Shown one piece after another: positions 4,704 through 25,303 of a stretch of 36,284 nucleotides of DNA (its first letter is position 1; every line of letters begins with the position of its first letter). Source of the stretch: a virus. The notes beneath the pieces were generated by a model. The model had not been told where the DNA came from, made no database searches, and saw nothing but the letters and a program-made list of their open reading frames with translations. A program made the position numbers and the translations under genes. The stretch spans positions 1 through 36,284 of the IMG/VR virus record IMGVR_UViG_3300036979_000499; one strand, written 5' to 3'.

Positions 4704-5917
4704 TGGACATCCGGATTGCCAGCACCATCAACCCGAGCTTCGTGGCGGACCTGTTCAAAAACAGAGCCCGCCTTGTTGCCTGTTATGGTGGCGCGGCAGC
4801 CGGCAAGAGCAAAGCAACCGCACAAAAGCACGTGCTGCGCTGCCTCTTGTACCACAACGAGCGCATCCTGGTGATCCGGAAAACCATGCCATCGCTCAAA
4901 CTCACAGCTCTTCGCATGGTCCTCGAGACACTTGCCGAATGGCATGTGCCCTACACCTTCAACCAGGCTGACATGACCATGCACATCCGCGACAGCGAGA
5001 TCATCTTCCTCTCGGTCGTGAACACCGCCGGCGGTGCAGCAGAGCGCATCAAGTCGCTCACGGACATCAGCGCCATCTGGATTGAGGAAGCAACCGAGCT
5101 CAGTGAAGATGAGATGCAGCAGATCGTCCTCCGCCTGCGAGGGCGTCCCATGACCGGCGGTTCCTACCGGCAACTCATCGCCACCTTCAACCCTGTCGAC
5201 GCCGGGCACTGGCTGCACAAGTGGGTCGAGATCGACCATACCATGATGGGCGTCCACAAGACCTACCATGACAACATTTTCCTCGACCCCGAGTACGCGG
5301 CAACCCTGGAGGCCCTGGCAGAGCAGGACCCGAACACGTATCGCGTCTACTGCCTCGGTGAGTGGGGCGCCCTGGAAAACATCATCTACAAGAACTATGC
5401 GGTCGAGGAGTTCGAACACCCGCAAGACTGGTACGACATGACCGGCCTCGGGCTCGACTTCGGCTGGGAAAACCCGAGTGCGGCCGTCTTTATCGGCGTG
5501 AAAGAGAAAGACCTCTACATCGTCGACGAAGTCTACCAGACGCACCTGACAAACGCAGAGCTCATGGCTCAGGTACGCGAACATCAGGACATGATCGGCT
5601 GGGAGGACCTGCCGACGGTCGGTGATAGCGCAGAGCCAGCTCGACTCGAGGAGTTTGAGCAGGCCGGCTTCGAGGTCTACGGCGCCGAAAAAGCGGTTTA
5701 CGACGGCATCACCTACGTCCAGGGCTTCCGTCTTCACGTTCACCCTCGGTGCGTCAACGTCGTCCGTGAGGTCCAAGCCTACAAGCACCGGCAGGACCGC
5801 AACGGGATCGTCCTGGAGGACCCGGTCAAGTGGATGGACCACACACTCGACGGAATCCGGTATTGGGTCTACACATTCGTGAGGAAAGCATTCGGCATGG
5901 GAGGTGGCAATGTTTAG
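4703..5917 (+). CDS. terL: Terminase large subunit
   Basis: A 404-residue packaging motor with ATPase and nuclease domains. Walker A is GGAAAGKS at about 29-36 and Walker B with the catalytic Glu is AIWIEEATE near 124. The nuclease domain starts with the acidic strand GLDFGW near 252 and continues with VGDSAEP. These features place it in the Terminase_3/6-like group of headful or cos terminases. The length is typical. It cuts concatemers and pumps DNA through the portal encoded next. The TAG stop at 5915-5917 overlaps the portal start, so it is a true terminator. Confidence 0.95.
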   Translation: MDIRIASTINPSFVADLFKNRARLVACYGGAAAGKSKATAQKHVLRCLLYHNERILVIRKTMPSLKLTALRMVLETLAEWHVPYTFNQADMTMHIRDSEIIFLSVVNTAGGAAERIKSLTDISAIWIEEATELSEDEMQQIVLRLRGRPMTGGSYRQLIATFNPVDAGHWLHKWVEIDHTMMGVHKTYHDNIFLDPEYAATLEALAEQDPNTYRVYCLGEWGALENIIYKNYAVEEFEHPQDWYDMTGLGLDFGWENPSAAVFIGVKEKDLYIVDEVYQTHLTNAELMAQVREHQDMIGWEDLPTVGDSAEPARLEEFEQAGFEVYGAEKAVYDGITYVQGFRLHVHPRCVNVVREVQAYKHRQDRNGIVLEDPVKWMDHTLDGIRYWVYTFVRKAFGMGGGNV

Positions 5918-7334
5918 TCCTTACTCGTCCAACAACGTCGGCTACAGCCCGCAAGGCATCATTGCACGGGAAGTCGACAGTAGTTATCAATCGTATGTCA
6001 AGGTGGGACAGAAAGCGGCTCGGGAACGATTGCATACCTACCAGGCGGCCTACGCCGGTGAGTACGACATCACCCTGCCGGAAAAGATTGCCTTCGAGCT
6101 CAAGGACCTCGGCATCAAGACGAACCTTGCCAAACCCGTCGTCGACGCCATGTGCGCGAAGCTCGACCTGAAGTCGGTGACCTCAACCGACGAAGCAACC
6201 CAGGCGCTGCTCGATGAGGAGTACGCCCGCAACATCGTTGATGAGGAAAGCACCGCTATCCATAAGGAAGCAGCCGTCAACGGTGATGCCTATGTCCTCG
6301 TCTGGCCGGAATACGGACCCGACGGCCAGCCGACAAAGCACTCCGTGATCCGTCTCCTGCAGACAGAGGACATCGACCTCACGTATGATGAGAGGGACCT
6401 CCTGAAGGCAGTCGAGTGCAAACGCATGTGGAATGAAACGCTGGCAGACGGCAAGACTCGGGTGCGTAAGGACACGATCACCGCTGAGTTCATCTATCGG
6501 GAATACTCTGATGAGGGAACAAACAGCGAGTGGCGGGACTACGTTGAGGACGGCCTTCCTCCGCTCGTGCCAAACCCGCTCCACACTATTCCTGTCGTGC
6601 ATTTCAAGGCTGAACGCGATGCCAGGAACCGGCCCTTCGGCATCTCACAGCTCGAAGCCGGCCTGCCGATCATCGCAGATATCAACGCCCTCGTCAAAGA
6701 TGCGATGATTAAAGCCTACTACGCCTCGGGACGGCAACTCGTCGTCAGTGGCGTGAACTCGGAAGCCTTCCTGAAGAAGAATCCCGCCGGCCTGGACCGC
6801 AGCGCCTTCGCTGCCCACATGTGGGGCGATCCCGCCGTGAAAGAGTTCGCGATCCCCGGCGACGACATGACCGGGCTCCTCGCACTCTTGCAGGCACGCG
6901 TCAAGCACCTCGCGATCGTCACGCGGACGCCATTGCAATATCTGGAGGCGGGTGTCCAGACGGGCATGAGCGGCATCGCTCTACAGCAGCTCGAGGGTGC
7001 CCTGGCAGACAAAGTGAAAGAAGCACAGACCCTCCTCGGCAGCAGTTACCGCCGCATGTTCTCCCTGGCCATGCTCGCCTGCGGACAACCCAACGCGAAC
7101 ATCGCGATTGGCTGGGAACAGCCGTATGCCCAGGACACAACCAACCAGGATCAAGAGGAGTACAAGTTGGGCCTCGTCACCGCAAAGGAGTATCACATGC
7201 GACGCGGCATGACAGAGGAAGCTGCCCAGGCCCTCGTCGACGACATTGAGAAAGAGAAAGACGCACAAACCGAACAGCTCTTTGGCAACACAAAGCCGGC
7301 GCCTTTACAGCCGGACGCAGCGCATCTTCCCTAA
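5910..7334 (+). CDS. Portal protein
   Basis: The ATG at 5910 follows GGGAGGTGG. A GTG two codons upstream is less likely. The 474 residues resemble SPP1 gp6-type portals in length, in an N-terminal segment with KDLGIKTNLAKPVVDA, in a crown region with PVVHFKAERD and FGISQLE, and in a long helical C-terminal part (GMSGIALQQLEGALADKVKEA). Portals form the twelve-subunit ring at one capsid vertex that binds terminase and later the tail connectors. It directly follows the large terminase, as in most siphoviruses. It ends with two tandem TAA stops. Confidence 0.9.
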   Translation: MFSPYSSNNVGYSPQGIIAREVDSSYQSYVKVGQKAARERLHTYQAAYAGEYDITLPEKIAFELKDLGIKTNLAKPVVDAMCAKLDLKSVTSTDEATQALLDEEYARNIVDEESTAIHKEAAVNGDAYVLVWPEYGPDGQPTKHSVIRLLQTEDIDLTYDERDLLKAVECKRMWNETLADGKTRVRKDTITAEFIYREYSDEGTNSEWRDYVEDGLPPLVPNPLHTIPVVHFKAERDARNRPFGISQLEAGLPIIADINALVKDAMIKAYYASGRQLVVSGVNSEAFLKKNPAGLDRSAFAAHMWGDPAVKEFAIPGDDMTGLLALLQARVKHLAIVTRTPLQYLEAGVQTGMSGIALQQLEGALADKVKEAQTLLGSSYRRMFSLAMLACGQPNANIAIGWEQPYAQDTTNQDQEEYKLGLVTAKEYHMRRGMTEEAAQALVDDIEKEKDAQTEQLFGNTKPAPLQPDAAHLP

Positions 7335-7351: not shown

Positions 7352-7879
7352 ATGGCTATCGCAGAAACCGACATCTTGTTCAAACTCTCAGGTGGAGCAG
7401 CGAACACCAGCCCTGCCGCATCGCTCGGACTTGCCATGTCCACGGTCGGAGGTGGCATCATCACGAAGACGAAGACGTTCAACTCAATCTTTGACGATGT
7501 GAGCGGAGCAGAGGCGGCGGCTGGAGACATCGAGTACCGTTGCATCTACGTCCACAACAACCACGGCTCGCTCACCCTCACAGGAGCGAAGGTCTGGATT
7601 GAGGCGAACACAGGCTCTGGCAGTTCCACCATCGCCATCGGTCTGGACTTGGCTGGCAAGAACGGAACGGCAGATGACATCGCCGATGAGTCCACCGCTC
7701 CCTCTCCTGCGGTCACGTTCTCGGAAGCCTGTACTTCCTATGCGACAGGACTTGCGTTGGGAGACCTGGCGTTCTCGGAGAAGTACGCCATCTGGATTCG
7801 GAGAACCATCACCGCAGCCATGCCAGCGAACGATGATGACAACTGGACGCTGAAGGTGCAGGGAGACACGGCGGCCTAA
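7352..7879 (+). CDS. Putative virion protein, 175 aa
   Basis: The ATG at 7352 has a consensus AGGAGG at 7341-7346. The protein is rich in Ser, Thr, Ala and Gly, and its strand-rich pattern suggests a beta-sandwich (VHNNHGSLTLTGAKVWIEAN, then KYAIWIRRT near the end). Such proteins occur as phage structural or decoration components. It is the first of three genes inserted between portal and MuF protein, where most phages have nothing. Base composition from here to about 8760 is visibly less GC-rich than in the terminase and portal genes, hinting at separate acquisition. The exact role is unknown. Confidence 0.7.
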   Translation: MAIAETDILFKLSGGAANTSPAASLGLAMSTVGGGIITKTKTFNSIFDDVSGAEAAAGDIEYRCIYVHNNHGSLTLTGAKVWIEANTGSGSSTIAIGLDLAGKNGTADDIADESTAPSPAVTFSEACTSYATGLALGDLAFSEKYAIWIRRTITAAMPANDDDNWTLKVQGDTAA

Positions 7880-7885
7880 GGACTC

Positions 7886-9811
7886 ATGGCACACACGCTT
7901 GATACCTCCAAGAGATTCACAGGGAGTGCCAATCCGCTAACAACCACCTACACTTGCGGTTCTGGAACGACACTCCTTGTCCTCTCCATCATCGTTGTTG
8001 GAGCAACTATCCGCACGAACGGAGCGACATCGCCACCCACATACAACGGCGTGGCGATGTCGGCTGTTGACGTTGGTATCAAGTATTCCTCAAGTCCTGA
8101 GACGAACGTGGAGATGTGGTATCTCCTTGACCCTCCGACAGGGAGTTCCTACACCGTCTCCATTCCGAACGCCGCAACCAGCAAGACGCTCTATGGACAC
8201 CTTGCGTCCTTCAAAGCACCTTCTGGCTACAGGACAATCTACGACAAGAAGAACACCGCCACAGGGTTGAGCAACGCTCCCAGTTGCACGGTCACTCCTG
8301 CTTCCGCTGGCGGTGTCATGGTCTGCGTCATGGGTGCAGGACATCAGGCAACGTGCAGTACCCGAACGCACACTATCCTGTTCTCGACCGATAACGGAGC
8401 CTACGGAGACCACTCGCAATACACGTTGCCGACCGACACGACTGCGAAGGCGATGGGATATGGCATGGCAACATCGGACGATTGGGCAGAGATTGTCGGC
8501 TCATGGGTTGAGCAACTGGTCGCATCGGCTCAGGTCATCTCAGCCTACAAGTCCAAAGCCGTCATATCGGCACAGGCGATAAGTGCCTACAAGTCCAGAG
8601 CAATCGCATCGGCACAAGTCCTGAGTGCCTACAAGAGCAGGGCGATAGCTTCCGCACAAGCAATCTCCGCATACAAGGTTCGCCAGTTGGCAAGTGCCAC
8701 GCTCGCAAGTGCCTACAAGGTGAGGAGCGTCATCTCTGCCACCCTTGTCTCGGCGTACAAGGTTCTCGTCACGATGACGGAAGTCTCTGCACAAGTCGTG
8801 AGCGCGTTCAAGAGCAGGGTGACGACGACCGCGCAACTCATCAGCGCGTACAAGAGCAGAGTGGAGATCGCCGCACAGGTCGCCTCGGCCTACAAGAGTC
8901 GCGTAATCGCCTCGGCCACACTGACCTCGACCTATATTTCCCGCACGATCATCGCAGCGACCCTGGAAAGCGTTTACAAGGCCAGGAACCTCGCAAGTGC
9001 CACACTCGTCTCTGCTTACAAAACCATGAACCAGGTGGCAACAACCCTCATCAGTAGTTACAAGAGTGCCGTGAGCATCGCGGCGCAGGTCGCCTCGGCT
9101 TACAAGACGCGGGCAATTGCAGCAGCGCAACTCATATCCGCCTTCAAGAGCAGGATCATCACAAGCGCAACAATACAGTCCACCTACAAGACCGTGAACC
9201 AGATCGCCGCTACCCTTGTCTCAGCATATAAAGTTCTTGCGGCGCCGGGACAGGTCATCGCAACCCTCGTCAGCGCATACAAGAGCAAGGCGACCATCTC
9301 AGCTCAAGTCGTCTCGACCTACGTGACCAGGACCATCACGGCAGCGACACTGGCGTCTGCGTACAGGGCCCGCCAGATTGCCTCCGCAACGCTGGCCTCC
9401 GCATACAAGGTGCGGAACCTTGTCTACGCGACGCTGGTGTCAACATACAAGTCGATTTCTCTCGGTGTGGCCGTTTCTGCGCAGCTTATCTCGGCGTACC
9501 GGACCAAAGCCCAGGTGGCAGCCCAGGTCGTCTCGACGTATGCGAGCCGGACCATCGTAGCCACCTCCCTGATCAGCGCCTGGAAGTCCACAAAGCAAAT
9601 CGCAGCAACCCTCATCTCGGCGTGGCGAACCCTGTTCTGGAATTACACCCGGCTCCTGCCATCAAGCGACTACACCACACGGCTGGCGGCCAGCGACTTG
9701 ACGACGGTTCTGTCTCCGTCGACGATCACCACAACCCTCGAGTCCCGCGATTTCGTGGCGACAACCGAAGCACACAACTTCGTCAGCACCCTGGAGGTGT
9801 CCAATGGCTGA
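7886..9811 (+). CDS. Repeat-rich virion protein (26 x 14-residue repeats)
   Basis: The 641-residue protein has three parts. Residues 1-213 form a Ser/Thr/Gly-rich, strand-rich globular domain. Residues 214-586 are 26 tandem 14-residue repeats of pattern [SA]A[QT]hhS[AT][YFW][KR]xxxhh, with Ser at position 6 and an aromatic at position 8 in every copy. Residues 587-641 form a Thr/Ser-rich tail. The repeat region has almost no Gly or Pro, and its hydrophobic spacing allows a two-heptad helical reading, so a long fibrous stalk is the simplest inference. Repeats 6, 17 and 22 carry three extra residues. Sitting after the portal, it may be a head fibre or whisker. A tail fibre displaced from its usual site is the alternative. 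I know no named family. Confidence 0.75.
   Translation: MAHTLDTSKRFTGSANPLTTTYTCGSGTTLLVLSIIVVGATIRTNGATSPPTYNGVAMSAVDVGIKYSSSPETNVEMWYLLDPPTGSSYTVSIPNAATSKTLYGHLASFKAPSGYRTIYDKKNTATGLSNAPSCTVTPASAGGVMVCVMGAGHQATCSTRTHTILFSTDNGAYGDHSQYTLPTDTTAKAMGYGMATSDDWAEIVGSWVEQLVASAQVISAYKSKAVISAQAISAYKSRAIASAQVLSAYKSRAIASAQAISAYKVRQLASATLASAYKVRSVISATLVSAYKVLVTMTEVSAQVVSAFKSRVTTTAQLISAYKSRVEIAAQVASAYKSRVIASATLTSTYISRTIIAATLESVYKARNLASATLVSAYKTMNQVATTLISSYKSAVSIAAQVASAYKTRAIAAAQLISAFKSRIITSATIQSTYKTVNQIAATLVSAYKVLAAPGQVIATLVSAYKSKATISAQVVSTYVTRTITAATLASAYRARQIASATLASAYKVRNLVYATLVSTYKSISLGVAVSAQLISAYRTKAQVAAQVVSTYASRTIVATSLISAWKSTKQIAATLISAWRTLFWNYTRLLPSSDYTTRLAASDLTTVLSPSTITTTLESRDFVATTEAHNFVSTLEVSNG
8525..9643 (+). 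repeat. Tandem array coding 26 imperfect 14-residue repeats
   Basis: A 42-base coding period runs from residue 214 to 586 of the gene at 7886. Copies are diverged at DNA level but conserved in protein: invariant Ser at repeat position 6, aromatic at 8 (Tyr in 22, Phe in 2, Trp in 2), mostly Ala at 2 and 7. Three units are 17 residues long, near residues 284, 441 and 514. Confidence 0.9.
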
Positions 9812-10139
9812 GTATTTGTACCATCGCGGCGACACGTTCGCCATGACGTGCCCGATCACGAAAGACCTCGTCCCCTTCGACCTAACCAGCGGAGGGCCCT
9901 GGACAGCGACCGCGACACTTGGGCAACTCGACGTGGTCAAGGCCATCACAGAGGCGCCGGACCCACTGAAAACAACCCTCGTCGTCCAGAACGGGAACGG
10001 CTTCGCCACGGTCGTCATCTACGGGTCCGAGCTCCTGAATGCTGGCTTCTACGACCTGGAACTTACCGCAACCGACGGGACGCTGAGGCATACCTGGCCC
10101 AAGTGGGTCATCTGGATCGTCGAGCCGCAGCGCATCTAG
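9804..10139 (+). CDS. Small beta-rich phage structural protein, 111 aa
   Basis: The ATG at 9804 lies within the last codons of the repeat protein (8-base overlap), with GGAGG at 9792-9796. The sequence has the style of phage fibre-attachment or baseplate-associated beta domains: YHRGDTFAM at the start, PFDLTSG, then NAGFYDLELTATDG and WVIWIVEP at the end. Its overlap with the repeat gene suggests the two products act together, perhaps as an anchor or chaperone. It ends in TAG, one base before the MuF gene. Confidence 0.65.
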   Translation: MAEYLYHRGDTFAMTCPITKDLVPFDLTSGGPWTATATLGQLDVVKAITEAPDPLKTTLVVQNGNGFATVVIYGSELLNAGFYDLELTATDGTLRHTWPKWVIWIVEPQRI

Positions 10140-10140
10140 C

Positions 10141-11946
10141 ATGCCACACACCGGACCACTCAACGACATCGCCTCCGGCGCCTTCATCAGCGCCGACGCG
10201 GCCACGAAAGGATACCTCAACGACCTGACCGGCCTGCTCGTCGGCAAGAGTGGCGCGGCCTTCAACTACAAGGTCGCCCGCAATGCAGCAGAGGAGCTCC
10301 GGTATACGTGGGTCCTGCAGACGCGCAACAAACTCAATAAGGACATCCAGGCCATCATCGAACGCCTGAAGCAACAGAACATCGCAGAGCTGCAACCGCT
10401 CATCGACAAGCTGGGACATCAGCGCACCCTCCTCCCTGGGGCCTTCTCTCTGACGGCGCTCTTCAACACGACCTGGGACGCAGAGATGTGGAAAACTATC
10501 GAGGCCAGCAGAGCCCAGTGGCACAGCCTCAGCGAGAGTCTGTGGCGCATCAGCGACGAAGCCCAGCGCCAGGCTCTCAGTCTCATCGAGGCGGCCAGCA
10601 GGCAAGGCATTCCCTTCAACAAGGTCAAAGCGGATCTCGCCGGGCTCCTGACCGAAAAAGGAGCCGCGAGCATGGAGTACAACATGCGCCGGCTGTGGGC
10701 TACGGAACTTCGCAGGAATCGCATCGTCGCGCAGCAGGAAGTCTGGAAAACCATTGGCGTGGTGAAAGAAGTCCGACTCTCCCGAAGCTCGACAGCCGAC
10801 ATCACCTGCGAAAAATGTGGCCAGGCGATCGGACCGCAGCCCCTCGACGAACGGGTCGTTCCCCTGGAGTGGCCGGACATGCCGCCCTATCATCCCTGGT
10901 GCCAGTGCAACACCCGTCCTGTGGAGCCAACACAAGCACAGATGAAAGCCTTCCTCGATAAGAAGTACGGTGAGCATCCCCTCGGGACCCGAGGCGGCAT
11001 CAATATCGCCAGCCTGCTCGTTCCGAAACCGGAACCGATCCAGAAACCCGTGACGCATGACCAGCTCGAGCAGGCATTCCAGGACGCGCACATCGAGGAC
11101 AACCTTCGCGCGTTCGATAAGGAACTTGGCAAGATGGCGAAGGCCCTCAATAAGCAAGGTTGGATTCCTATCAAAACCGATAACTTCCGTCTCGAGATGC
11201 ATACTCGCCTGGACCATATGGTCGGGCAGTTTGGAAGTCCGAAGTGGACCCTGACCAAAGGAGGCGGCGGCAGTGGCGGCGGGTATTACTTGCAAGGGCA
11301 TGGCGGTAAGATTATCATTGACCCGACGAAGTTCCCCAACGTGACCGGCATGCTGGACGTGTCGATCCACGAATATGGCCACTACCTCGCCAACGTCCTC
11401 GACGACATGAGCACCATGCGCAATACTTGGCTCAACGGCACGCAGTTGAACCAGGCACGCGAGGCAATCCAGGCGGCAATGGGACAGCTCAAGGACTATG
11501 CCTTCCGGACTATGACAGAAAAGACTGGAGGCGTCACCGGTCCCCTGCAATGGGCAAAACAGCTCCTCAACTATGGTAGCAAGGCCCCGCTTCCGCAGAA
11601 TGTCCTGGACCTGCAGAAAGCAGCACAGCAGTTGAAGGGCATGCTCGATTCGAACGCTGCTGTCGGCCGGCAGTTCGGCGCGGGATTCTTCGACCTGACC
11701 GGCGGGCGCCTTCCCGCCTCGGGCGCCAGTCACGCCGTGACATACTTCAAGCGAACCGACTATATGCACTGGCCGAAAACCGGCAACGTCGGCATGGTCG
11801 AGCAGGAAACGCTGAACGAATTCACGACTGGCTACCTCCTCGGGAACCCAGGACAACGCGCTGTCATCGACTACCGCATGTACGATTGGGTGCCGGACCT
11901 CTGGACCGCGATGCACCGCTGGATTGACTTGATTCTCGGCATATGA
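10141..11946 (+). CDS. MuF-like minor head protein with HExxH metalloprotease domain
   Basis: The protein has 601 residues. The N-terminal half is a helical minor head protein of the Mu gpF/SPP1 gp7 type. It ends in the usual cysteine cluster (CEKC near 223-226, then HPWCQC at 251-256), which marks the end of that domain. The C-terminal half carries SIHEYGHYL, a zinc-protease HExxH motif at 410-414. ETLNEF near residue 560 could supply a third zinc ligand. MuF proteins carrying C-terminal enzymatic or toxin domains form a known polymorphic-toxin class, packaged in the head and possibly delivered with the DNA. Head maturation is an alternative function. No immunity gene is obvious, though the following 96-residue gene is unexplained. 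Confidence 0.85.
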   Translation: MPHTGPLNDIASGAFISADAATKGYLNDLTGLLVGKSGAAFNYKVARNAAEELRYTWVLQTRNKLNKDIQAIIERLKQQNIAELQPLIDKLGHQRTLLPGAFSLTALFNTTWDAEMWKTIEASRAQWHSLSESLWRISDEAQRQALSLIEAASRQGIPFNKVKADLAGLLTEKGAASMEYNMRRLWATELRRNRIVAQQEVWKTIGVVKEVRLSRSSTADITCEKCGQAIGPQPLDERVVPLEWPDMPPYHPWCQCNTRPVEPTQAQMKAFLDKKYGEHPLGTRGGINIASLLVPKPEPIQKPVTHDQLEQAFQDAHIEDNLRAFDKELGKMAKALNKQGWIPIKTDNFRLEMHTRLDHMVGQFGSPKWTLTKGGGGSGGGYYLQGHGGKIIIDPTKFPNVTGMLDVSIHEYGHYLANVLDDMSTMRNTWLNGTQLNQAREAIQAAMGQLKDYAFRTMTEKTGGVTGPLQWAKQLLNYGSKAPLPQNVLDLQKAAQQLKGMLDSNAAVGRQFGAGFFDLTGGRLPASGASHAVTYFKRTDYMHWPKTGNVGMVEQETLNEFTTGYLLGNPGQRAVIDYRMYDWVPDLWTAMHRWIDLILGI

Positions 11947-12244: not shown

Positions 12245-12868
12245 ATGACACCTGAAGAATTGAAGGCGATCGCAGACAAAGCCGCTGCCGATAAAGCCAT
12301 CGCGGACAAGGCAGTCGCGGACAAGGCACTTGCGGACAAAGCCGCTGCTGATGCAGCAGCCGCCGCTGAACCGAAACATGAGGCGACGGTCCCATACGAA
12401 CGCCTCCAGGCAGTCATCCAGGAGCGCGACGCTCTCAAGAAAGAGAAAGACGCCGCTGCTGAAAAAGCTCGCCTAGCAACCGAAGCAGAGCAGAAAAAGC
12501 AAGGCCAGTGGCAGGCTCTTGCCGAAACAAAGGACAGAGAACTGGCAGCAGCAAAGGAGGCCCTGAAAACCAGCGCCCTGCGACAGGCAACCCTGGTGGC
12601 CGCTGTGGCCGGAAACGCCGTCGACCCTGATGCAGTGTGGGCGCTTCTCGACAAGAGCACCCTCACGACGACAGATGACGGGACCCCGACGGGCGTGCAG
12701 GAAGCCGTCCAGAAACTGCTGACAACGAAGCCCTATCTTGTCAAACAAGCAACCCCTGGTTACCCAATGGGTGCCGGCGGGACAGGTGGAAGCCTCACGA
12801 CTGAGGAGATCGGGAAACTGACTCCAGCCCAGTATCGTGAGTGGAGAGCAAAACACCCCGACGCTTAG
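12245..12868 (+). CDS. Scaffolding protein
   Basis: The ATG at 12245 has AAGGAG upstream. Of 207 residues, the first 45 are built from ADKA repeats. A long charged coiled coil follows (about 45-120, with ERDALKKEKDAAAEKARLATE-type sequence), and a C-terminal domain ends in TPAQYREWRA. This matches phage scaffolds in size, coiled-coil content and position immediately before the major capsid gene. It would guide procapsid assembly and then leave. The TAG stop is part of the next gene's TAGGAGG ribosome site. Confidence 0.8.
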   Translation: MTPEELKAIADKAAADKAIADKAVADKALADKAAADAAAAAEPKHEATVPYERLQAVIQERDALKKEKDAAAEKARLATEAEQKKQGQWQALAETKDRELAAAKEALKTSALRQATLVAAVAGNAVDPDAVWALLDKSTLTTTDDGTPTGVQEAVQKLLTTKPYLVKQATPGYPMGAGGTGGSLTTEEIGKLTPAQYREWRAKHPDA

Positions 12869-21893: not shown

Positions 21894-22541
21894 ATGGCAT
21901 TCGCAGTCTGGACATCGGCAGTCCTGACAAGGTGGTTGGAGGCACCGGTTCCTGTCGTCACGCACCGAGCAGCCGACCACTTCATCGCTACCTTCGATGC
22001 TATCGACGATGCCGTTTCCTACGAGTTCACGACGGACGGTTGGACGTGGCTGCCGATTGTCTCGGGCGTCGACGTGACGACACAGAGCACCGGTGTCGCG
22101 CTCGAACCAAGCGTCCACTATCCGCTTCAGGTCAGAGCTATTGGTATCGGAGGAGTTCCCTGGGACATGTCATTTCCCAGCGCAGTTGTCGATGCATTCA
22201 CGAACCCTGCCGACCCCCCGACGATCATGCTCTTCGCTCCACACCCGACCGACGACCCTGGCATCTGGATCATGCGCGGTCTCGTTGTGGTCTTCGGCGG
22301 CGCTGTCGTCACGATCACCTTCCAGTACGGTCTGACAACCGCCTATGGCACAAACGTCGTCCTCGATGGCACCTACACCACTGGCGAACGGGTCGTCAAA
22401 GCAGTGGCAATGACACCCGAGACGGTCTATCACGTTCGCATGAAAGGCGAAAACATGGGCGGGATCACCTACACCGCCGACGCGATTCTGTTCACGGGCA
22501 GAAAAGCCCAGTGGCGCGTTTACGAACGCCAGGTGACGTAG
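21894..22541 (+). CDS. Tail protein with fibronectin-III-like beta domains, 215 aa
   Basis: The ATG at 21894 follows the previous TAA directly. It shares its N-terminal MAFAVW with the gene before. The rest has two strand-rich domains: about 28-105 (AADHFIATFDAIDDAVSYEF, HYPLQVRAIG) and about 120-205 (TTAYGTNVVLDGTYTTGE, TPETVYHVRMKGENMGG). The second is fibronectin type III-like. Such domains serve in phage fibres and baseplates. GC content returns to the genome norm. The TAG stop shares its last base with the GTG of the next gene. Confidence 0.6.
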   Translation: MAFAVWTSAVLTRWLEAPVPVVTHRAADHFIATFDAIDDAVSYEFTTDGWTWLPIVSGVDVTTQSTGVALEPSVHYPLQVRAIGIGGVPWDMSFPSAVVDAFTNPADPPTIMLFAPHPTDDPGIWIMRGLVVVFGGAVVTITFQYGLTTAYGTNVVLDGTYTTGERVVKAVAMTPETVYHVRMKGENMGGITYTADAILFTGRKAQWRVYERQVT

Positions 22542-25303
22542 TGGCCACAACCTACAGAATCCTCGACAATGTTCTCGACGCACAGGTCAGCGAAGCACGC
22601 AACGCACCGGCCGCTGCTGCACTTATCCGTCTGGCAGGAACCGTCGACGTCACGCTCGGCGAAACAGTCGTCTTTGCCCATGACCAGGGCGGCCAGCGCA
22701 GCTACTACCCGCTCGAGGCTATCAAGGTCGATCATGAGAACGGGACAACGCTCGTCACAGCACGTTCGCTTCTCTGGCAGCTCTTCAACGTTCTGCTCCC
22801 TGACATGGAGGACCAGGCAGGCGAGGCGTCGGTGATCATCAAGGCGGTGATCGCAGCAGCAAACGCGGTCCATTTCTGCGACATCTACGTGAACGACAGC
22901 AACATCACTCCCTCCAGTCGAACATACACCGCCGTCAACGTGAGCCATCGGAAGGTCGGTGAACTCCTCCAGGACCTCTGCAAGGATACGGCCTGCGTGA
23001 TGTGGGTTGGCTATGACGAGGTCAACGACAAGTTCAACGCCTTCTTCTTCCAGCCAGTCTCAAGCATCGAGCAGGACACGGGCGCGATCCGTGAAGGCGT
23101 CAACATCGTCTCCGAAAACCTGCAGAAAGGATCACTCGACGACGTCTGCAACTATGTCCTCATGTACTATTTCCCGCGTCGGTACCCGTATGGAGAGGAG
23201 TGGACAGAACCAGCAGACATTGAAGCGGGAACGGCAGCCTGGACCCGAGCAGCCGATTTCGACCAGCAAGCCCACGTCCCCGGCGCGGGTCGCGAAGTCC
23301 GTCTGTTCCAGCGAGGCCCCTGCACGACCATCAGCAGCGACTGTCTGAACGAGGACCATATCCACGTCGCGAGTACGTCGGGCTTCGCGGACGTCGGCGG
23401 CCTTCTGATTGCCGGCATCGGTCTCGTCTACTATCCGAGCAAGACCGCTACGCAGTTCAATTTGGTAGGCGCTATCAACGGTCTCTGGAAAGCAGGACTG
23501 ACCGTCGTGCAGGGCTGGCTCTCCGACCTTGGGCCAGACGTCCAATGTGAAGTCGCGAACGTCTATATGGCTCCCATTACCGAGACAGTCGACCAGATTG
23601 ACCTCTACATCGAGAGCATCGTGGGAACCCCGGGCCCGATCAAGGTCTATGCCGTGAGCAGCGAGTACGGATATCCGACGACCTACCTCGGGTCCATCAC
23701 CCCAACAGCCCCGGGCTGGCAGACGCTCGAAGTCGACTGGACCGACCCCGGTCCCTACTACTATTCCATTCACCTCGTGTTCCAGATCGAACAAGCACAG
23801 ACCATCAACGACTACTATACCCTGGGGACGGGACCGGCAGCCGTCGGTGACTTCTATAGTTGGTATGTCTATTCGGACGCCTTCGGCGGCGGGTCCGATC
23901 CGCTACAGCAACTTTCCGTCGCCCTGTGGAGCGGCCTCATGACCGCACCCAACACCACCTGGATTTGCACGGGAGCTCTGATAGCCCTGGACCAGGCGGC
24001 ATTTCTCAATAGCAATGGCGTGGTGATGAATGACAACCGAGCAGGAATCGGTTGCATTCGATTCGTCGGCGCCGGCACCGCGAAAGTCGAGGATACCAGC
24101 GACATCGCAGAATATGACCGCATTCACTTTTACTACAAGGGCAACATCAGTCAAGTCGAGGTCATCTGCCAGGGCGGTTCCTACTATCAAGCGCTCGGTT
24201 CAGAACACGACTGGAATGAGGAGACGCTGCCCCTCGCGGCCATGCTGAAGTCAGGAACTCCGACCAGCACGCTCATCTCCATCAAGTTCACGAATACCGG
24301 CGGTTCAGGCTGGGTCGACGGTCTCTACTTCCTGGCCCCGACCAGTGGGCTGCCGGTCACCGTCCAGGATGCCGATTCCATTCTCGCCTACGGGCAGCAC
24401 CCCGAGGTCATCTACGCGAAGGGCGTGACCGAAAGCAGCTACGCCTTCTCCCTTGCCGAAGCAATCGTCCTCGACCGCAAGATACCGAAATATTCCGGCA
24501 CGATCGTCGTGAAAGACATCCCTGGACGCTGGAGCCCGCAGAAATCGGTGCGCGTCATGATCGCGAGCAAGAGCATCGACGAAGTCATGGCCATCTACCA
24601 GGTGACACACCGCCATGATGGATATGCCCAGCTCGAGGTCAACAGTTTCGAGTTCGACTACGCCCGCATCCTCGCCGGCCTCCAGAGCAGCATGGAAAAT
24701 CTGCAGATCAGCGTCGGCTCGACCGTTCCCGTCGACGAGAATGTGGCGAAACAAGCAGTGGTCGTCGCAGTCCATGCGGGACGACACGCATCCGGCGGGC
24801 TCGACGAAATCACTGTCGGAGGGCTGACCGGCGTCCTTGCCGATAACCAGCCGACGACCTGGGCCCTTGTGGCACTGAAGCCATCGAGCACCGTGACAGA
24901 CATTGATAGTGCGGTGAGCCTCAAACACGCGGCAGCGCACACACATCTCCTGGCAGCAGGCGCCACCGATGTCACGGGAAGCGTTGCCGACCTCAACGAT
25001 GCGGTGAGCCTGAGACATGCAGCAGCCCACACACACCTGCTAGCAGCAGGCGCGACTGACATCACCGGTGCTGTTGCCGACGTCAATGACGCCGTCGGCA
25101 AACGCCATGAGCATACGAACTCGGCGGTCCTGGCTGCTCTCGTTCTTTCGAAGTACGACGCGACAGCAGGTCCCACTGTCGACGACGACGTAACACTCGG
25201 TTATGCCGTCGGGTCGCGCTGGTACGACATCACCGGGGACGCAGAGTACGTCTGCCTCGACGCCACCGACGGCGTAGCAGTCTGGAAAAAGACGACACCA
25301 TGA
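22541..25303 (+). CDS. Large tail protein with HTH-motif fibre repeats, 920 aa
   Basis: The GTG at 22541 is preferred because the frame upstream merely shadows the previous gene. Residues about 1-180 resemble prophage tail (gp37/Tal-type) hub proteins (SHRKVGELLQDLCKDTACVMWVG). The middle carries lectin-like beta domains. Residues about 780-870 hold a 30-residue unit present about 2.5 times (AVSLRHAAAHTHLLAAGATD), with His-Thr-His, like metal-binding fibre segments of T4 type. The C-terminal domain (SRWYDITGDAEYVCLDATDG) looks like a fibre tip. It is probably the tail-tip or fibre protein. Confidence 0.75.
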   Translation: MATTYRILDNVLDAQVSEARNAPAAAALIRLAGTVDVTLGETVVFAHDQGGQRSYYPLEAIKVDHENGTTLVTARSLLWQLFNVLLPDMEDQAGEASVIIKAVIAAANAVHFCDIYVNDSNITPSSRTYTAVNVSHRKVGELLQDLCKDTACVMWVGYDEVNDKFNAFFFQPVSSIEQDTGAIREGVNIVSENLQKGSLDDVCNYVLMYYFPRRYPYGEEWTEPADIEAGTAAWTRAADFDQQAHVPGAGREVRLFQRGPCTTISSDCLNEDHIHVASTSGFADVGGLLIAGIGLVYYPSKTATQFNLVGAINGLWKAGLTVVQGWLSDLGPDVQCEVANVYMAPITETVDQIDLYIESIVGTPGPIKVYAVSSEYGYPTTYLGSITPTAPGWQTLEVDWTDPGPYYYSIHLVFQIEQAQTINDYYTLGTGPAAVGDFYSWYVYSDAFGGGSDPLQQLSVALWSGLMTAPNTTWICTGALIALDQAAFLNSNGVVMNDNRAGIGCIRFVGAGTAKVEDTSDIAEYDRIHFYYKGNISQVEVICQGGSYYQALGSEHDWNEETLPLAAMLKSGTPTSTLISIKFTNTGGSGWVDGLYFLAPTSGLPVTVQDADSILAYGQHPEVIYAKGVTESSYAFSLAEAIVLDRKIPKYSGTIVVKDIPGRWSPQKSVRVMIASKSIDEVMAIYQVTHRHDGYAQLEVNSFEFDYARILAGLQSSMENLQISVGSTVPVDENVAKQAVVVAVHAGRHASGGLDEITVGGLTGVLADNQPTTWALVALKPSSTVTDIDSAVSLKHAAAHTHLLAAGATDVTGSVADLNDAVSLRHAAAHTHLLAAGATDITGAVADVNDAVGKRHEHTNSAVLAALVLSKYDATAGPTVDDDVTLGYAVGSRWYDITGDAEYVCLDATDGVAVWKKTTP

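Follow-up and report, generated by a model that had tools for sequence, protein, structure and literature searches.

Described appendages of the phage neck include the whiskers of T4, the collar spikes of phage XM1, and the decoration proteins of phage 812, and they have been proposed to sense the host, assist in fibre assembly, and stabilise the neck (PMC10491603, PMC12886913). Gp15 of T4 is listed as a tail completion protein (PMC4362835). In the Vibrio phages KVP40, nt-1, K566, and EniLVp02, it was found that gp15, the tail sheath stabiliser or terminator, carries a C-terminal extension of 14-residue units with an aromatic residue at position 8 (e.g., TDALQIDWSTRSSA and VSDLEIDWNRRFSI), which amounts to approximately 11 to 16 units in the three phages counted. 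KVP40 gp15 matches PF16724 (E = 5.9e-76), and its residues 3 to 222 match T4 gp15 structures (E = 1e-52), whereas the extension does not. In T4, six copies of gp15 form a ring where head and tail meet, so the extension must begin at the neck. Directly after gp15, these phages carry a gene, in KVP40 the hypothetical gene KVP40.0353, whose product matches phrog_13135 (E = 3.5e-112) and is here called DVSGAE. The entry for phrog_13135 gives neither a function nor a record of linkage to a repeat. In PHROGs v4, phrog_6079, annotated as "tail protein," matches both the KVP40 gp15 extension (E = 4.7e-8) and the array of locus L254 (E = 6.5e-22), with no description of a repeat or a partner in its entry. 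The repeat type is partly covered by phrog_6079 and its partner by phrog_13135, the latter without a function. Searches of the literature on 14-residue phage repeats, head-fibre repeats, and KVP40 neck structure, with few subscription journals covered, found no description of the repeat, of its pairing with DVSGAE, or of the gp15 extension.

The window examined here is the whole 36,284-nucleotide stretch of the IMG/VR virus record IMGVR_UViG_3300036979_000499. Its gene order is terminase, portal, DVSGAE, repeat gene, a gene for a 111-amino-acid protein, minor head protein, scaffold, and major head protein. The portal gene (5904 to 7334, plus strand) was identified by matches to PF05133 (E = 5.5e-15) and phrog_104 (E = 4.6e-42), and the minor head protein gene (10141 to 11946, plus strand) by a match to phrog_115 (E = 1.7e-7). 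The DVSGAE gene (7352 to 7879, plus strand) encodes 175 amino acids, of which residues 17 to 175 match phrog_13135 (E = 7.9e-32), and its stop is separated by six bases from the repeat gene, which begins at 7886. The repeat gene therefore lies between the portal and minor head protein genes, in agreement with the preliminary description of this DNA, which had placed it beside the portal gene. As in the KVP40-type phages, the units are 14 residues long with an aromatic residue at position 8, and a DVSGAE gene is directly adjacent. However, in those phages the array is acidic and fused to the core of a neck protein, while that of the window has basic units and a gene of its own with its own N-terminal domain, and DVSGAE lies on the opposite side of the array. 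The window protein showed no match to PF16724, the T4 gp15 tail terminator, in Pfam and none to phrog_6079 at an E value of 1 or below. The earlier statement that no named phage repeat has this form consequently holds in that there is no Pfam model, but has to be qualified because phrog_6079 matches two related arrays, though not that of the window.

The repeat gene (7886 to 9811, plus strand) starts with ATG and encodes 641 amino acids. The triplet S-x-[YFW] was counted 26 times between residues 219 and 580 (22 Tyr, 2 Phe, and 2 Trp), bearing out the claim that Ser at position 6 and an aromatic at position 8 are present in every copy. Counted as 14-mers with the consensus SATLxSAYKSRxxx, the 26 units occupy residues 214 to 586, exactly nucleotides 8525 to 9643 on the plus strand. 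The word "consecutive," applied to them previously, proved slightly too strict: spacing is 14 residues in 22 of 25 cases and 17 in the other three (residues 289 to 306, 446 to 463, and 519 to 536), owing to three 3-residue insertions. The units are Ala-rich and basic, with approximately 0.1 Gly each. The reported lack of Gly and Pro applies inside the window units, where both are nearly absent, but "APGQV" occurs in one 17-residue spacer, and either residue is common in several relatives. BLOSUM autocorrelation of the array reached 1.72, 1.37, and 0.86 at lags 14, 28, and 42, respectively, with values no higher than 0.0 at lags 1 to 13 (lag 7, -0.45). In contrast, Tandem Repeats Finder detected just 2.2 copies in the DNA (8543 to 8635), indicating that the repeat is held at the protein level. 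The spacer VLAPLGQVIASLVSAY is retained in a relative, L244, whose array is 50% identical to that of the window, and keeping an "APGQV"-type spacer at this level of identity supports an old array. The proposal of an old repeat selected in protein, with diverged DNA, was upheld by these results.

Two further parts of the protein were absent from the preliminary description. The C-terminal segment (9659 to 9808, plus strand; residues 592 to 641) consists of about five 9-residue repeats (SDYTTRLAA/SDLTTVLSP/STITTTLES/RDFVATTEA/HNFVSTLEV), with an autocorrelation of 1.59 at lag 9; it is 100% conserved in a sister phage, L001, and L244 has a similar ending. The N-terminal domain (7886 to 8521, plus strand; residues 1 to 212) was predicted by AlphaFold2 to be composed entirely of strands arranged as a beta-sandwich, with pLDDT mostly above 90. 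In L001, identity to the window is 97 to 100% for the terminase, portal, DVSGAE, small gene, and minor head protein and 98% for the array, but it is only 42% for the N-terminal domain, and the change is abrupt where the array begins. The 373-amino-acid repeat protein of L244 has no such domain, and its upstream gene is 71% identical to that of the window. The N-terminal domain is exchanged between phages, and its divergence amid near-identical neighbors in L001 and its absence from L244 suggest an exchangeable display module rather than a machine core. An initial reading of this domain as the virion anchor was dropped on the same grounds. Profile searches identified approximately 30 IMG/VR loci with relatives of the domain (27 to 53% identity), the C-terminal parts of which are wholly different, comprising 18-, 19-, 20-, 21-, and 22-residue arrays, an FN3/kelch-like form, and long unrelated proteins. 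Among loci L210 to L241, some of these domains head proteins of 1,131 to 1,135 amino acids that resemble podovirus tail nozzles, a putative assignment made by eye. Neither the repeat protein nor the N-terminal domain profile significantly matched Pfam or PDB sequences, and a fold search with the full window model returned generic jelly-roll matches alone, with low TM-scores.

To identify how often the repeat gene accompanies DVSGAE, the latter was used as an independent probe; its seed alignment included the window, L001, and L156, which are all known repeat carriers and hence not independent. In a first set, 13 independent loci extended far enough past DVSGAE, and a 14-residue-repeat gene lay downstream in every one of them, L262 included, whose spacing is a mixture of 14 and 16. 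A larger scan yielded 80 loci which, with four found earlier, gave 84; these were reduced to 68 at 90% identity, of which 40, among them the seed phage L001 (listed as L268), were flanked by 3 kb or more on each side. Of these 40 dereplicated IMG/VR loci, 32 carried a same-strand open reading frame with a period of 14 (or 28) near DVSGAE at a strict threshold, whereas the same period-14 test on 28 N-terminal domain loci (285 kb), which served as controls, was positive in none. Below the strict threshold, 14-residue or mixed 14/16-18 units were present in L262, L276, L277, L292, and L305, and 14-residue units were weakly visible in L326. In L317, an 18-residue array (RVSAEHVEVFVVPDTQKA) replaces the 14-residue one, so DVSGAE may accept other repeat types, and no repeat array was seen at L332. 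Conversely, L089, L156, and L173, which were found solely by their repeat pattern, also carry DVSGAE. No recognizable array was present near the divergent DVSGAE homologues of L072 and of the uncultured phage LR756511. The linkage of the repeat protein and DVSGAE as a two-gene cassette is thus well supported, and in the window, too, the two genes are close neighbors with the same orientation. A DVSGAE profile found no match in approximately 700 bacterial genomes, a search run without a positive control that says little about prophages. A plasmid search and a consensus-repeat query gave no matches, and a stringent DNA motif encoding three YK/YN units returned mostly low-complexity or unrelated open reading frames from bacterial genomes and viral contigs. 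A DUF5626 match in the L253 array (E = 2.7e-6 over 44 residues) was set aside as likely chance composition.

The cassette is widespread in phages and usually lies near head-to-tail joining genes. In Alteromonas phage vB_AemP_PT15-A5, a podovirus of the Schitoviridae, a 159-amino-acid repeat protein is followed by DVSGAE, a 107-amino-acid gene, and then directly the portal gene. The order in L156 is capsid, DVSGAE, a 530-amino-acid gene, the repeat gene, and connector-like genes, and this phage also has a sheath-like gene, these names having been given by eye from the sequence. A tblastn search of phages with the window repeat protein gave a sole match, Aeromonas phage vB_C4 (L004:5473-10053; PQ676986.1), in which a tail-region protein ends in approximately 20 units of AELLPPYGLRSTVQ. 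This array has 14-residue, Pro-rich units with the same aromatic spacing as in the window, and there is no DVSGAE in the locus. In L025, L110, L016, L088, and L168, too, viral proteins contain 14-residue units with a regularly recurring aromatic, and no DVSGAE is present in the fetched locus. The repeat type thus also exists outside the cassette, as vB_C4, L025, L110, and L016 lack DVSGAE.

From the lack of Gly and Pro and a possible two-heptad spacing, the preliminary description suggested a long stalk, approximately 55 nm if fully helical, that could be a head fibre. This would be consistent with the Ala-rich units, nearly without Pro and Gly, and AlphaFold2 does draw the array of the window itself as long helices, with pLDDT of 82 to 86 over about the first four units and approximately 37 to 73 elsewhere. 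The prediction made for the monomer therefore leans towards the earlier proposal, albeit at modest confidence. However, the signal expected of a heptad-based fibre such as fibritin, which is a coiled coil, was not seen: autocorrelation at lag 7 is negative, and the 3.5-residue harmonic of the profile pooled from 13 related families shows no excess (2,642 of 5,000 shuffles). Across these families, Leu is found at position 4, an aromatic at 8, Val at 10, Arg at 11, and Val or Ile at 14, and mean hydrophobicity is higher at even than at odd positions in all 13. A 2-residue harmonic explains 39% of the variance in the mean profile, a level reached by 100 of 5,000 column shuffles; taken singly, the signal is weak in the window (13% of variance) and in L244 (8%). 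Pro or Gly occurs in many units of arrays from the same genomic slot, and Pro reaches 0.5 to 1.1 per repeat in several related families. When the L259 array was modeled with a 14-row family alignment, AlphaFold2 gave approximately twenty strands, mostly of 11 residues, joined by three-residue turns with a 14-residue period (pLDDT, 59; pTM, 0.51), and this model had no significant match in the PDB. The two models conflict, the window array being helical and that of L259 beta-stranded; the cross-family evidence was weighed above the window model because arrays in the same slot with the same partner should share a fold and several are Pro-rich. Beta structure is therefore favored for the array, and the helical stalk is improbable. 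The YadA-type head repeat, a left-handed beta-roll with 14 residues per turn, similarly combines a period of 14, aligned units, and, possibly as in the window, beta structure, but its Gly-containing NSVAIG motif is missing from the window units.

Going by sequence comparison, the most economical reading of the repeat protein would be a neck appendage. We consider it reasonably probable that such an appendage is built from an elongated beta repeat protein together with DVSGAE and displays an exchangeable N-terminal beta-sandwich. The repeat protein would then make up the repeat-bearing half of a conserved cassette of two virion genes and would extend as an elongated beta-structured appendage from the head-tail junction, a location to which the gene context of the window and the gp15 fusion in relatives point. 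Each unit would supply one strand of approximately 11 residues and a tight turn, with even positions facing the core (L/V at 4, the aromatic at 8, V/S at 10, and I/V at 14) and the odd face towards solvent. If beta-solenoid-like, the 26-unit array would be approximately 12 nm long (26 × 4.8 Å), not 55 nm. DVSGAE would assemble with the repeat protein, most likely anchoring, capping, or decorating the repeat body, and the displayed beta-sandwich would probably bind a target on the cell surface or in the environment. The head fibre proposed earlier is possible, and its placement as a probable virion appendage close to where head and tail join is supported, but an attachment at the neck is better suited to the comparative evidence. 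To the T4 whiskers, the XM1 collar spikes, and the decoration proteins and whiskers of phage 812, such a structure is likened by its role as a neck appendage alone.

The close co-occurrence of the two genes, and units of strand length with alternating hydrophobic residues, would also be expected if each unit were a separate beta-strand ligand that completes or captures one DVSGAE subunit by strand addition, in a donor-strand-like manner, giving a multivalent string as a collar or fibre round the neck. The consensus is uniform within one phage and different between phages, which would suit such capture, but a self-packing solenoid accounts for it equally well. The type of aromatic (Trp versus Tyr or Phe) required nine changes on the DVSGAE tree against a shuffled mean of 13.1, a count no higher than nine being reached in 9 of 500 shuffles (on a quicker, earlier tree the count was seven); this weak tracking of the partner is compatible with strand capture and weakly suggests joint inheritance of array and partner. 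The number of aromatic-spaced units ranges from approximately 5 to 31, which speaks against strand capture, and we regard it as unlikely; if true, it would bring donor-strand-type assembly to tailed phages with contractile, long, and short tails, reaching KVP40 gp15. A tail-tip or side tail fibre, with the adjacency to the portal gene accidental, would be in keeping with the vB_C4 tail protein that ends in a 14-residue array, with a relative bearing the same N-terminal domain between the tail tube and tape measure genes in L211, and with the N-terminal domain protein of L210, which matches PHROG minor tail families. Yet in the cases with annotation, the DVSGAE-linked form has a portal, capsid, connector, or gp15 gene beside it, and a tail-tip or side tail fibre is quite improbable. 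Least probable of all is a flexible or weakly ordered linker or spacer that holds the N-terminal domain away from the particle: although AlphaFold2 confidence is low over much of the window and L259 arrays and insertions of 2 to 3 residues are tolerated, the aromatic, Leu, and Val positions are conserved across very different phages, which would be needless for a spacer, and the L244 and KVP40 arrays have no displayed N-terminal domain of the window type.

Dozens of dereplicated phage contigs have the cassette, as do cultured Vibrio and Alteromonas phages, yet it is nameless and without a function in Pfam and PHROGs. As the gp15 link reaches KVP40, which is in culture and has annotated neck genes, the question of what the cassette does is directly testable in the laboratory. 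If confirmed, the appendage would account for a class of unexplained short-repeat phage proteins and would add a further type of neck appendage beside whiskers and collar spikes.

Downstream of the array, the gene for the 111-amino-acid protein (9804 to 10139, plus strand), taken from the open reading frame list, overlaps the end of the repeat gene, has a weak match to phrog_1084 (E = 0.036), and is 100% identical in L001; genes like it in size alone adjoin several other cassettes. The minor head protein contains a zinc-protease-like HEYGHYL (HExxH) motif in its C-terminal half (MLDVSIHEYGHYLANVL), and its residues 428 to 465 weakly match phrog_3445, annotated as "toxin" (E = 0.0043). It may be of the MuF type and carry an effector-like domain at its C-terminal end. 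Within the scaffold-like gene (12245 to 12868), a Lys/Ala-rich repeat on a 15-residue scale, with periods of 30 and 15 bp, was observed at 12269 to 12352. Finally, two 90-base tandem copies that are 80% alike are present at 24910 to 25086, within an open reading frame of 1,123 amino acids (21932 to 25303).
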